Of a DNA stretch of 21,385 nucleotides, positions 1,086-15,415 are shown one piece after another. Both the position numbers and the translations under genes were made by a program. Within the stretch, counting starts at the first letter, position 1. Every line of letters begins with the position of its first letter. The DNA lies in the IMG/VR virus record IMGVR_UViG_3300022690_001983, positions 1 through 21,385 of that record; one strand, 5' to 3'. The notes beneath the pieces are model-generated. The model made no database searches. It was not told the origin of the DNA and worked only from the letters and a program-made list of their open reading frames with translations. The stretch comes from a virus.

Positions 1086-3368
1086 TCAACTTGCCTTTTT
1101 CACCTCTCGGTCTTTTTCTTTCTGCTCTTTGGTAACATCAATTTGTTTTTCTTTCAAGCGCATGCCTTCGCTTATTTGGGTTTGTAATAACCCTATCTTC
1201 TCTGCTGCCATACTGGCCTTCACTCCTTCTTCCTCCATCTGTTTTACCACCAACTTGGTTTGATTATCCCTTTTGTTCATTTCATCTTTCAAGCCAAGTT
1301 CTCTTTCTCTGAACTCAATTTCCATCTGCTTTGACTGAACAGTAGCCTGATTTTGAGATTCTGCTAATTGTTGTTCTCTTTGAAGTTTTTCTTCTTCACT
1401 CTTTCTCAATTCGCCTTTCACATTGGCAATACTATCACTTTCAAGAACAGAGAGCACATCGGCAAAACTCGCAGTACCTTGTTGCATAGCGAATTGCATT
1501 AACTGGCGAGCTGTCTCAAGAACTTTCCAATCTTTTGAAGAATTAGAGACAAATACTGCATGGTCGCTATCTAAAAATAGTTCTGGTTCTATGGTGAAAT
1601 AAATAGTTGTCAGATCATCCATAACATATTGACCTTTCTTTCCTGAAACCCAGGCGAGTTTAGCATCTTCCAATAAATTAGTCAAAACTCTTTCTTTGAC
1701 AGTATTATGTGCTTCAAAATAAGGTTCTGTTATATGAGAACTCTGAGTTACTGATCGTTCTACATTCCCCACTAATTCTCGTTGTTGTATCTGGCCTTGC
1801 CGTTGTTCACTAACCCCGCTAATCTGGCCCACCATACTTTCCAGTTTCTCAAGTATGCCTATATACTGATTAATTGTATTGGAGATAGTAAGATCGAATT
1901 CTTTGAATTGATTGAATGTTGGCTTTTGACCCTTCTTGCCTTCTTCCATTGAATTTATGAAGGCTATACCCATAACATCCATATAGTACAACCATTTTTC
2001 AACATCAAATCCCTCTGATCGGGGTATCTTTGCCCGGGCTATTGCCAATTCCAACCGGTACATGACGATATTATAAAGATATTGGTGGGGCTTCATCACA
2101 TCCACTAAGGAATAACTCTCACTATTTCTTTGGTTGTAGATTATTCCTGTATATCCCAGGCGACACTTGGAAGGATTATCCATTGACCTGAATTGGTTGG
2201 GCTTAGGACGTATCTGTACGTATATTCCATCGCCAGTTGTTCCATCCCCGATCTTAGTAGCTTCCCAAACTTCATTAATCCATATCCATTCAACTTCTTC
2301 GCCTTCTTCTTTGTTAGCTTTATAATCTTCCGGTACTAATTTTTGCCTTACCTGGCCTTCTTCATCAAAATAAGTGAGGAAACCCATTTTTCTTAAACTT
2401 TTCCATTCGAATCTAATAACACGAACTATAGTTGATGAGTACTGTTCATAAGTATTTGAGAAGTAACCTGTATCTCTATCAACATAAATAAAAGGGATTC
2501 TACCTCTATCATATACTGCATTTTGGTGCTGGTAACCTTTCATTTCTTCGATTTCATCTACTTGGTCTTGGCTTAACACATCATGGTATTCATCATAAAC
2601 CTGTGAAGCGGTTAGAAACCTCCATTCCATAGCCCATGATGCCTCATCTATGTATTCTATATCTTCATTCCTGTCAAAATCAAAGAACATAGGATTCACT
2701 ACTCTACAAACAGGCTCACCATTTATTATACCGGTCCAGTAAACTTCCTCTGCTGCAACCAGGGAATCAAACCATCCTTTATTAAATTTGTCCTGAAGTC
2801 TTTGTTCTTTGGTCAAATATTCAAGGGCATCCTGTCCCAACTTAGCTCGCATATCCTTGTAGGATTTATCAATATAGTTATTGATCTCCTTCAGGCTCAT
2901 CATCTGACCTTCTTCTGATTCCGGGTCCACGCCCTGATCAGCCAATTTATTAGAGATACGTTGTTGTATCATCTGCATAATCAGATTCTTCCTTTCTTTT
3001 TCCCTATCCGTGAATGTTTGTGAACCGGTGGAGTTTACCATCCAGTTGAAGGGGCGCTTTATTTCCTCACCCCTGAGAAGATTAAGTTTAGGAGTTATAA
3101 TGTCATAGTGGGTCATTGTGGCTGGGAACACATAATCTTTGATTCCATAGGGGCTTTCCACGTAATCAAGATCACTTTTATTGAATTTTCCTGCAGCCAG
3201 GTCGTAGTTGGTTTTTTTTCGGTAGGTATTGCTTTGCCTATTATATGCACCTTGCCCTGAGAAGGCAAGGATGCTTTCAATAGTTTCTTCGCCCCATTTT
3301 TCAATAGAGCCATGCTTACTGATTTTCTCAGCGCGCGTTAAACGTTGATTTGGAAATTGTGTCGCCAC
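1086..3368 (-). CDS. Portal protein
   Basis: This 760-residue protein is the likely dodecameric portal at the capsid vertex, through which DNA is packaged and to which the tail attaches. Length, position two genes after TerL, and features such as LRGEEIKRPFNW (about residues 98-109), a charged helical insert (about 125-190) and a long C-terminal coiled coil rich in Glu, Lys, Gln and Arg (about 650-760) fit crAss-like portals. The only plausible start in frame is GTG at 3366-3368; an ATG at 3371-3373 is out of frame and no internal Met occurs for the first 80 or so residues. The start lies in a GC-rich leader with a hairpin, and a promoter -7 box sits about 60 bp upstream. The portal call is a family judgement by eye, not an alignment. 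Confidence 0.85.
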   Translation of the reverse strand: MATQFPNQRLTRAEKISKHGSIEKWGEETIESILAFSGQGAYNRQSNTYRKKTNYDLAAGKFNKSDLDYVESPYGIKDYVFPATMTHYDIITPKLNLLRGEEIKRPFNWMVNSTGSQTFTDREKERKNLIMQMIQQRISNKLADQGVDPESEEGQMMSLKEINNYIDKSYKDMRAKLGQDALEYLTKEQRLQDKFNKGWFDSLVAAEEVYWTGIINGEPVCRVVNPMFFDFDRNEDIEYIDEASWAMEWRFLTASQVYDEYHDVLSQDQVDEIEEMKGYQHQNAVYDRGRIPFIYVDRDTGYFSNTYEQYSSTIVRVIRFEWKSLRKMGFLTYFDEEGQVRQKLVPEDYKANKEEGEEVEWIWINEVWEATKIGDGTTGDGIYVQIRPKPNQFRSMDNPSKCRLGYTGIIYNQRNSESYSLVDVMKPHQYLYNIVMYRLELAIARAKIPRSEGFDVEKWLYYMDVMGIAFINSMEEGKKGQKPTFNQFKEFDLTISNTINQYIGILEKLESMVGQISGVSEQRQGQIQQRELVGNVERSVTQSSHITEPYFEAHNTVKERVLTNLLEDAKLAWVSGKKGQYVMDDLTTIYFTIEPELFLDSDHAVFVSNSSKDWKVLETARQLMQFAMQQGTASFADVLSVLESDSIANVKGELRKSEEEKLQREQQLAESQNQATVQSKQMEIEFRERELGLKDEMNKRDNQTKLVVKQMEEEGVKASMAAEKIGLLQTQISEGMRLKEKQIDVTKEQKEKDREVKKAS

Positions 3369-3426: not shown

Positions 3427-3434
3427 CAAAGGTA
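3427..3434 (-). promoter_or_regulatory. Promoter -7 box for portal transcription
   Basis: The minus strand reads TAATTACCTTTG, containing an exact TAnnTTTG (TACCTTTG, 3434-3427). The same extended TAATTACCTTT core occurs in the two promoters of the divergent region (13849 and 14670). No clear TTTG is seen about 20 bp upstream. Transcription would start near 3420, about 50 nt before the portal start. Confidence 0.45.
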
Positions 3435-3465
3435 ATTAGATTATTCTATAAACTACATTTTTCAA

Positions 3466-12949: not shown

Positions 12950-13438
12950 TTATCTTTTTAGTAACTTTTTTTTCAGAGGCTCCCCGAAGTATTTGGGTAG
13001 CCCACTCCGGGCTATGGATTTGAGATCGTATTTAATGGTTTCCACCCGGGACTTCTGATCAGACTTCCAAAGGAGGAGAATATTCATCTTATAGGACTTG
13101 TTCCCTAGCTTCTCTATCACGCTTTCTTCTACCAGGGACTTCAGCATCTTGCTCACGGTGCTCCGGTCCATGGAGTTACCAGTGTTATTCTTATACCGGT
13201 CAAGGAACTGCGTCCTTTTCTCCGGGCCGAAGTGGACCAGGTTCTTGTCATCCATTTTCTCAACCATGAAGCATAGCAGGCAGAATTGCCGGATTGACTT
13301 CAGCTTATAGCATAATGAGACCTGGTTCTCTGTCTTGTAAATCTGGAAGAACTCATTGGGTACGTGTAGCCTGTAATGGACATTTTTGATCTCATTGGTT
13401 TGTGCATCGGTAACGATGTCTATGTAATCTTCAGCCAT
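12950..13438 (-). CDS. Winged-helix RepL/MarR-like DNA-binding protein
   Basis: 162 residues. The middle (about 45-115) has helices SIRQFCLLCFMVEKM and a winged helix-turn-helix, MDRSTVSKMLKSLVEESVIEKLG, with a short wing (NKSYKMNILLLWK). Both N- and C-termini are charged, the C-terminus basic (EPLKKKLLKR). This resembles RepL-type plasmid initiators and MarR-type regulators; which role applies cannot be decided by eye. It lies next to repeats and DnaA-box-like sites. The gene is about 50% G+C at 13141-13200 against 35% at 12721-12780, suggesting different origin. Its ATG lies in an 8-bp overlap with the preceding gene. Confidence 0.75.
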   Translation of the reverse strand: MAEDYIDIVTDAQTNEIKNVHYRLHVPNEFFQIYKTENQVSLCYKLKSIRQFCLLCFMVEKMDDKNLVHFGPEKRTQFLDRYKNNTGNSMDRSTVSKMLKSLVEESVIEKLGNKSYKMNILLLWKSDQKSRVETIKYDLKSIARSGLPKYFGEPLKKKLLKR

Positions 13439-13592
13439 CGTTGCGTTCTTTAAAATATGATTCAGGTATGGCCGTAATTTCCCTTAAACGTTTCTTGGCT
13501 TGTCTTAAACTATCCAAGAGAAGTTGTGTCTCTACACTGATTGTAGTGTCAAAAATCTCTTTTTTATTATTCTTTTTTACTCTCATTGGCAT
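13431..13592 (-). CDS. Small basic protein cotranscribed with the winged-helix gene
   Basis: 53 residues from ATG 13590-13592 (MPMRVKKNNKKEIFD), with an alternative in-frame ATG two codons later. The N-terminus is very basic; the centre (TQLLLDSLRQAKKRLREI) is an amphipathic helix. The stop overlaps the ATG of the winged-helix gene as ATGGCTGA, pointing to coupled translation. It is the first gene of the minus-strand array and so may be a partner or regulator of the winged-helix protein. Confidence 0.6.
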   Translation of the reverse strand: MPMRVKKNNKKEIFDTTISVETQLLLDSLRQAKKRLREITAIPESYFKERNDG

Positions 13593-13616
13593 AGTTATTG
13601 ATTGTACACGACATCA

Positions 13617-13624
13617 CAAATATA
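13617..13624 (-). promoter_or_regulatory. Promoter -7 box of the minus-strand array
   Basis: Minus-strand TATATTTG (13624-13617) matches TAnnTTTG exactly and would start RNA near 13610, about 18 nt before the first ATG. No good TTTG is seen near -33; instead the adjacent upstream DNA is the TGTGAATTAAA repeat cluster, as expected for a promoter needing or blocked by a bound regulator. Confidence 0.5.
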
Positions 13625-13628
13625 ACAC

Positions 13629-13698
13629 TTTGTGAATTAAAAGCCTATAAAAGTAGGTCTTTAATTCACAAAACAGGGGGTAAATGTGAATTAAAAGC
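13629..13698. repeat. Direct and inverted TGTGAATTAAA repeats (operator or iterons)
   Basis: TGTGAATTAAAAGC occurs twice in direct orientation (13631-13644 and 13685-13698). A third copy is inverted, so that TTTGTGAATTAAA (13629-13641) pairs with TTTAATTCACAAA (13660-13672); with CCTA/TAGG inside, the arms reach 19 bp with two mismatches around a 6-nt loop. The core TGTGAATTA differs by one base from a DnaA box complement (TGTGNATAA). It sits directly upstream of the winged-helix operon promoter, so it may be an autoregulatory operator or origin iterons. Confidence 0.75.
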
Positions 13699-13824
13699 AT
13701 AGTTTTTTCAAGCAAACCCTTTGCCCTATTAAAACCCCCTTATCTATATAGAGTTATTTTTTGAAGTGATCACCGGGCCAATCCATCAATCAATTAACCA
13801 CCCTCTAAAAAATACTCCCAACCA

Positions 13825-13856
13825 TTTGCGATATTTACTAAAAGTAATTACCTTTA
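13825..13856 (+). promoter_or_regulatory. Consensus Bacteroidota promoter for a short RNA
   Basis: TTTG (13825-13828), a 20-nt spacer, and TACCTTTA (13849-13856) give a near-perfect -33/-7 pair for the primary sigma factor of Bacteroidota; only the last G of TAnnTTTG is changed. The -7 is embedded in TAATTACCTTT, shared with two other promoters in the window. Confidence 0.65.
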
Positions 13857-13862
13857 CAACCA

Positions 13863-13930
13863 AGTTAAGTAATTGGTTTAGGGCTGCAGAACACCTATCG
13901 TACGTGATACTCTATCTGCAGCCCTTTTTT
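13863..13930 (+). ncRNA. Predicted small RNA of about 68 nt
   Basis: A promoter is followed about 70 bp later by a strong intrinsic terminator, with no open frame between. The RNA would contain the end of an AACCAA/TTGGTT hairpin (13858-13863 with 1373-78 of the same block, that is 13873-13878) and a long terminator hairpin whose loop can form an inner stem TATC/GATA (13896-13899 with 13906-13909) capped by UACG. It could be a regulator, an origin-linked RNA or an attenuated leader. The start site is estimated from the promoter only. Confidence 0.5.
13881..13930 (+). terminator. Intrinsic terminator with 10-bp perfect stem
   Basis: GGGCTGCAGA (13881-13890) pairs perfectly with TCTGCAGCCC (13915-13924) and is followed by six T (13925-13930). 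The 24-nt loop has its own short stem. Only the plus orientation has the T-run, so it ends rightward transcription, and no plus-strand gene lies upstream of it. Confidence 0.8.
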
Positions 13931-14504
13931 ATTACCATAGAGTGAGGCACGTACTGTACATCCGTGAGTGGTGTGTGTCGGCTTAGAACGATTGTGTACA
14001 GCAGTTGATAGTACCAGCACACCGCCTTGCTCTTATACCTGGCACCGGTCCAACCTACTACTATCTATTACTATCCTATTGTATCCCATGTATATGTTAT
14101 AGTAGATCACATTATAGTTACTCCCCCTACCCCTAAAGCATTGGAAACCCCTGCACCCCTTTGTTAAACAGGAATTGCATTTACTTTTTTGAGTTTTGAA
14201 TTAATGATCCTGAATTACATATCTCAGCATTCTATTTAACATAATAGATAATTATATGACAAGTAGTGATATGTTAATGTGTTGCTATTTAACCATTTAC
14301 CTATTTGGGAAAAGAAAACAGGGAAGAAAATGGTACTATTCCAGTATTGAGAGGGGATTTGAGCACTTTAATGGCCGCATGCTGGGAGTATTGAAATAAA
14401 TCACTCTCTTATGATATATAGAGGTATGGGAAAACAGCAATACAATTATTTACTAAGAAATAGCAAAAGGGAAAAGACCGGAGACAGGGCAGTTGAATAG
14501 ATAT

Positions 14505-14526
14505 TGTGCATAAGATGTGCATAAGA
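14505..14526 (-). promoter_or_regulatory. Tandem perfect DnaA-box sequences
   Basis: TGTGCATAAGA occurs twice head to tail. On the minus strand each copy contains TTATGCACA, an exact fit to the DnaA box TTATNCACA, with an 11-bp period that puts both on the same face of the helix. A single match in 21 kb could be chance; an exact tandem pair in a divergent gene-free region is much less likely to be. Binding by host DnaA is inferred. Confidence 0.6.
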
Positions 14527-14647
14527 ATATGCTTGGCTCAGACAAGGCCACAAGAACATAAGTAAATAAGCTATAATTATTTTGGTTCTATGAAGTAGTG
14601 ATGTCAAGGCATTTGCAAATAACGCAAATAATACACACAACTAAAGC

Positions 14648-14677
14648 GTTGCATATCCGAAACATTAATTACCTTTG
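14648..14677 (+). promoter_or_regulatory. Promoter of the plus-strand array
   Basis: GTTG (14648-14651), an 18-nt spacer and an exact TACCTTTG (14670-14677) form a good Bacteroidota promoter, one to two bases short of the preferred spacing. It would start RNA near 14684, about 47 nt before the first ATG. The leader carries AAACGAAATT, which recurs before two later genes. Confidence 0.6.
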
Positions 14678-14730: not shown

Positions 14731-15003
14731 ATGAAAACACAACACACACAAGGAGAATGGATGGCTAAAGAGGGGCAAATATACCCTCAAGAAACTGGGG
14801 TAACCCTTGCCTTAATTCCTTATTTTGATGATGGAAATAACGAACAACAAGCCAACGCCAAACTAATTGCAGCAGCACCGGAGTTATTGAAGGCGTTACA
14901 AGATATACTTGGCCATGTACCAATCGGCAAGGATTATTTTACTCACGGTGAGGAATTATCAATACACAAAGCAGAGCAAGCCATTATAAAGGCTACTGAA
15001 TAA
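14731..15003 (+). CDS. Small phage protein with ANAKLIAAAPELL motif
   Basis: 90 residues. HTQGEWMAKEG near the N-terminus and EQQANAKLIAAAPELLKAL in the middle are the signature of a very widespread phage protein family (HTPGPW ... EANARLIAAAPELL), whose function is not known. It is first in the plus array, behind its promoter. The long A-rich leader with CTAAAC and no Shine-Dalgarno is typical for Bacteroidota. Confidence 0.8.
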   Translation: MKTQHTQGEWMAKEGQIYPQETGVTLALIPYFDDGNNEQQANAKLIAAAPELLKALQDILGHVPIGKDYFTHGEELSIHKAEQAIIKATE

Positions 15004-15097: not shown

Positions 15098-15415
15098 ATG
15101 AAAACTAAAATCAAAACCCTTGACATTACAGCAAAAGAATGGTTTGATAAAGTAAACGGTAATAGTTATTTTTCCTGCACTGTTACAGTAAACTATGGCA
15201 TGAAAGGAGAGCAAACAATTAAACTACCCTTTCAGTACGGGTATGGTGATCTATTCAGGCATAAGGCATTTGAAGCGCTGCAGGATCATAAATTAATCCC
15301 TGGACAAAACAATACTACGGCTCCATGGTGCTACTATGACGATAATAATATTATTGCGCGTCATACTAAATATGAAAATTGCCTTAAAAGGGACTTAAAA
15401 GCCCTTGTATCATAA
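15098..15415 (+). CDS. Phage protein with GNSYFSCTV and FQYGYGD motifs
   Basis: 105 residues. KEWFDKVNGNSYFSCTVTVN and IKLPFQYGYGDLFRHKAFEAL match a widespread small phage and prophage family of unknown function, predicted as a beta-rich fold. Start ATG 15098 after AACTTAAATAATACTACT, a typical leader. Cotranscribed with the flanking genes. Confidence 0.78.
   Translation: MKTKIKTLDITAKEWFDKVNGNSYFSCTVTVNYGMKGEQTIKLPFQYGYGDLFRHKAFEALQDHKLIPGQNNTTAPWCYYDDNNIIARHTKYENCLKRDLKALVS

Follow-up and report, generated by a model that had tools for sequence, protein, structure and literature searches.

Genomic context of the divergent gap

The analysed window, a 21,385-base virus fragment (IMG/VR record IMGVR_UViG_3300022690_001983), is, as judged from its sequence, part of the genome of a crAss-like, gut-type phage of the Crassvirales. 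Matches to PHROGs 6681 and 6547 identify its terminase and portal, and the window combines a crAss-type terminase and portal with the divergent late and early blocks by which members of this group are recognised. Identity of the terminase to those of named Crassvirales reaches no more than 36%, with Suoliviridae cr118_1 as the top match. A minus-strand block comprising the portal, the terminase and many small genes starts at 13592 and runs leftward, and plus-strand genes, a DNA polymerase sliding clamp among them, are found from 14731 on. Between the late and the early/replication blocks lies a divergent gap of 1.1 kb that contains a promoter-hairpin unit (Table 1), and the same divergent layout is seen in other Crassvirales loci (L003, L004 and L006). 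The GC skew of the window also turns in this gap, a type of turn described for crAss-like phages (PMC10136315). Because the coding strand changes at the same place, the turn alone is no proof of an origin; the first-pass annotation had assigned the unit to a putative origin region, and of this the location in a gap at the skew turn stands, with the same turn equally marking the change of coding strand.

On the late side of the gap, the copies of TGTGAATTAAA(A)G are arranged as a 19-nt inverted repeat (89%) that adjoins and overlaps the probable leftward promoter. They are likely operator half-sites over this promoter, and the repeat region as a whole looks like an operator for a late-block repressor. 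On the early side, about 730 bases (13932-14660) separate the terminator of the unit from the early promoter and bear no convincing gene, and neither strong structure nor iterons were found in this stretch. Further into the early block, a gene at 15098-15415 (+) encodes a 105-aa protein of unknown function (PHROG 6246). Many unrelated phages (Vibrio, Escherichia and IMG/VR contigs) encode relatives of this protein at 40-55% identity, which makes its gene a widely shared early one.

Two observations concern the terminases of other loci. In L006 (17902-19962), the terminase frame is open throughout only if TAG is translated into an amino acid, and a tRNA-Gln is located immediately upstream; TAG recoding of this sort is known for some crAss-like phages, and no sign of it was found in the window. 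A distant crAss-like terminase gene (L086, 30-4313) apparently carries two intein-like insertions (CFGKGTKVLMADGS... and CLTPGEKVLTDKG...).

Table 1. Features of the promoter-hairpin unit and related elements in the window
Feature	Position	Strand	Basis
-33 element TTTG	13825..13828	+	exact TTTG, 20-nt spacer
-7 element within TAATTACCTTTA (TAnnTTTG box 13849-13856)	13845..13856	+	shared 11-mer TAATTACCTTT
Short 5' stem AACCAA/TTGGTT (13858-13863 with 13873-13878)	13858..13878	+	folds of alternative starts
Predicted ~71-nt non-coding RNA (inferred start; end at T tract)	13861..13931	+	fold z -4.4
Intrinsic terminator (11-bp stem 13880-13890/13915-13925, 24-nt loop, T6)	13880..13930	+	
Second element copy TAATTACCTTTG, before first early gene (14731-15003)	14666..14677	+	
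Third element copy, before portal gene (1086-3368)	3428..3438	-	
Probable leftward -7 box TATATTTG, late block (first gene 13431-13592)	13616..13623	-	sequence reading
Three copies (+,-,+) of TGTGAATTAAA(A)G	13629..13706	.	repeat search

Predicted promoter and terminator of the unit

The promoter of the unit (13825-13856, +) reads TTTG-N20-TACCTTTA and agrees with nine of the ten specified bases of the Bacteroides/Flavobacterium consensus, TTTG/TAnnTTTG (PMC7366714; PMC9723704). The -33 element is exact and falls within the usual distance of about 19-21 nt upstream of the -7 element, which is itself a near match to TAnnTTTG (five of six specified bases, with the final G absent). A scan for classical E. 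coli sigma-70 promoters finds nothing at this site, and the promoter claim is therefore limited to the Bacteroidota consensus, which is the appropriate one for a Crassvirales phage. In flavobacteria the TAnnTTTG box occupies -12 to -5 (PMC9723704), which places the predicted start of transcription near 13861. A promoter site of this type stands 15-60 nt before the hairpin in 1% of 2000 dinucleotide shuffles of 13593-13879.

The hairpin that follows has the G+C-rich stem (seven G-C pairs in 11 bp) and subsequent T tract (T6 at 13925-13930) of an intrinsic terminator. Its stem is perfect, and its loop, within which TATC pairs with GATA, is longer than usual; an automatic terminator scan with a loop maximum of 8 missed it. 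At -22.8 kcal/mol it nonetheless exceeds every other terminator-like site of the window in strength, on neither strand is there another perfect stem of at least 7 bp with at least four G/C and a T tract, and a stem of at least 10 bp followed by T5 arises in one of 100 shuffles of the whole window. The segment 13860-13932 folds at -25 kcal/mol (z -4.4), and of 2132 tiles, each compared with 30 shuffles, none has a lower folding z-score than the 80-nt tile at 13861 (-5.9 on the minus strand and -4.5 on the plus strand). The short 5' stem would be complete only if transcription began a few bases before the predicted start. One half of the terminator loop (GTACGTGATACTCTAT, 13901-13916) is imperfectly complementary to ATAGAGTGAGGCACGTAC (13938-13955), just past the T tract, a match reached by 77 of 5000 shuffles; this complementarity is weak and without obvious use.

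These results largely bear out the anatomy proposed in the first-pass annotation. The near-consensus promoter with its 20-nt spacer and the lack of a plus-strand gene on the upstream side are both confirmed, the former for the Bacteroidota consensus only. The terminator, described as a perfect 10-bp stem with T6, is indeed perfect and does carry T6, but its stem is 11 bp long. The statement that no reading frame separates promoter and terminator holds in that no coding frame fits inside the predicted transcript, with the qualification that a mechanically called 59-aa ORF (13766-13945, +), which starts upstream of the promoter and has no family match, spans the unit.

A recurring probable promoter element

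The strongest single evidence for the unit is its promoter context. The 11-mer TAATTACCTTT, the -7 context of the unit, is present in three copies in the window against 0.06 expected from shuffles. As the 11-mer was chosen after two copies had been seen in a repeat search, independent support comes from the third copy and from the positions of the copies, not from the count alone. Beyond the unit itself, one copy has its box end 54 bases before the first early gene, and the minus-strand copy lies 70 bases ahead of the portal start. The resemblance of the unit and early promoters extends further: TTGCATAT, upstream of the early copy, resembles TTGCGATAT of the unit promoter, both share TTGC(g)ATAT near -33, and the score of their alignment is reached by 20 of 5000 shuffles. 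From this recurrence, TAATTACCTTT looks like a real promoter element of the phage. It occurs eight times in 1.27 Mb of distant Crassvirales loci, where roughly 3.6 occurrences are expected from scaled window shuffles, and because this is little above expectation, the element is at most one that belongs to the lineage of the window.

Comparison with other phages and known small RNAs

No close relative of the window was found in the IMG/VR, phage and genome collections searched, from which very near records were possibly omitted. Rfam gives no gathering match in the window, relaxing E to 5 brings up nothing at 13825-13931, and a tRNA/tmRNA search found none. About 30 distant Crassvirales loci lack a like unit in their corresponding gaps, in which convincing early-facing hairpins are limited to Cellulophaga phage phi14:2 and L049, the latter following a small reading frame. 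The exact stem pattern has no copy with a similar loop in IMG/VR and genomes; the best copy, from a Saprospiraceae locus (L089), falls within the beginning of a coding gene and is regarded as coincidental. The combined promoter pattern matches 13 stretches in IMG/VR, none with a similar hairpin in the next 110 nt. Within Crassvirales loci, a promoter-like site stands upstream of 16 of 364 strong terminator-like sites, a count that weighs against a small-RNA gene. A duplex-energy target search of the loop and the 5' part against the gene starts of the window did not rise above shuffled probes, 90% (loop) and 40% (5' part) of which paired equally well.

A start site and an intrinsic terminator in an intergenic position are the marks of high-confidence small RNAs in Bacteroides thetaiotaomicron (PMC7366714). 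The unit resembles such intergenic RNAs of Bacteroides, for example GibS of B. thetaiotaomicron, in having its own promoter of the sigma-ABfr type, an intergenic location, an intrinsic terminator and no coding frame, and differs from them in belonging to a phage genome and in matching no Rfam family. Whereas GibS has a single-stranded 5' region of 38 nt, the RNA predicted here would have hardly any.

Among phages, the lambda OOP RNA is a 77-nt transcript antisense to cII, and lambda 6S is a leader RNA. Both share with the unit the arrangement of a short, terminated RNA with its own promoter in a regulatory or origin region; in contrast, the unit is antisense to no gene, has no known antiterminator and belongs to an unrelated phage.

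Alternative interpretations

The lambda comparison raises the possibility of a leader that restrains the early block in the manner of p'R-6S-tR', in which transcription would begin at 13861 and usually stop at 13931 unless an antiterminator let the polymerase through the 800-nt gap to the genes from 14731. The strand and the order are right for such an arrangement, only apparently non-coding sequence intervenes between the terminator and the first early gene, and the loop half has its imperfect complement just downstream. That complementary arm, however, lies past the T tract and would be made too late for competition with the terminator, no antiterminator gene was recognised, and the separate promoter copy directly ahead of the first early gene makes a leader unnecessary, such that this interpretation is quite unlikely. 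An orphan terminator shielding the early block against antisense read-through of the late block, with the promoter-like site being weak or fortuitous, has a precedent of sorts in phi14:2, whose matching divergent gap holds a T9 hairpin facing the early genes, behind which a promoter could fit only within the neighbouring gene. It is still rather unlikely, given that the promoter site at such spacing has about a 1% probability of arising by chance and that TAATTACCTTT is common to it and to two other promoter positions.

The hairpin might also act as DNA, in the form of a cruciform serving as an origin element or as a promoter for a virion RNA polymerase like those of coliphage N4. Its location in the divergent gap at the GC-skew turn and the fold of the single-stranded DNA (z -3.9) agree with this, as does the placement of an inverted repeat ahead of the early genes in a phage group that has a virion RNA polymerase. 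This enzyme is reported to read crAss-like early genes, in a programme that has been compared with that of N4 (PMC10136315). In the N4 promoters, however, the stem is short (7 bp in the solved complex) and the loop has 3 bases (PMC4496689), to which neither the 11-bp stem nor the 24-nt loop corresponds. The one-sided T tract is characteristic of a terminator and would serve no purpose in a cruciform, and the repeat search found no iterons around the hairpin, all of which renders a DNA-level function very improbable.

A free-standing gene for an RNA of about 71 nt, mostly one hairpin, is the reading to be favoured, because neither the promoter nor the terminator is likely to have arisen by chance, because the two are correctly ordered and spaced, and because TAATTACCTTT recurs at two other promoter positions and nowhere else in the window. 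It is held with slightly better than even confidence, and the self-contained small RNA gene between divergent operons postulated in the first-pass annotation accordingly remains the best-supported reading of the anatomy, at that same strength. The further proposal that it controls replication or the early promoter is unsupported, the pairing with gene starts being no better than that of shuffled probes.

The predicted small RNA and its significance

From the match to TTTG/TAnnTTTG, a polymerase of the host sigma-A type would recognise the promoter, start near 13861 and stop at the T tract near 13931 after the 11-bp hairpin, to yield an RNA of about 71 nt consisting almost entirely of hairpin. 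The shared promoter element suggests that this RNA would be made together with the early block. It may act through pairing of its 24-nt loop with a host or phage RNA encoded outside the fragment, or perhaps through protein binding. A virion RNA polymerase is reported to read the early genes of crAss-like phages, with the late genes probably read by the host polymerase (PMC10136315), and the use of a host-type promoter here is for that reason an inference; neither simple polymerase scheme accommodates a host-type element that the early gap and the portal gene have in common. That the product is a regulatory small RNA made early in crAss-like infection, from a divergent early/late control region, is a tentative and rather doubtful proposition.

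A small-RNA gene is an ordinary kind of element, here in a poorly known phage group, and none was found described for crAss-like phages or Crassvirales in the open literature searched. The control of transcription and the promoters of this order are hardly known, and TAATTACCTTT offers a specific sequence whose promoter activity can be tested in a crAss-like lineage. If transcribed, the unit would be the source of a small RNA encoded by a phage whose order is among the most abundant in the human gut.
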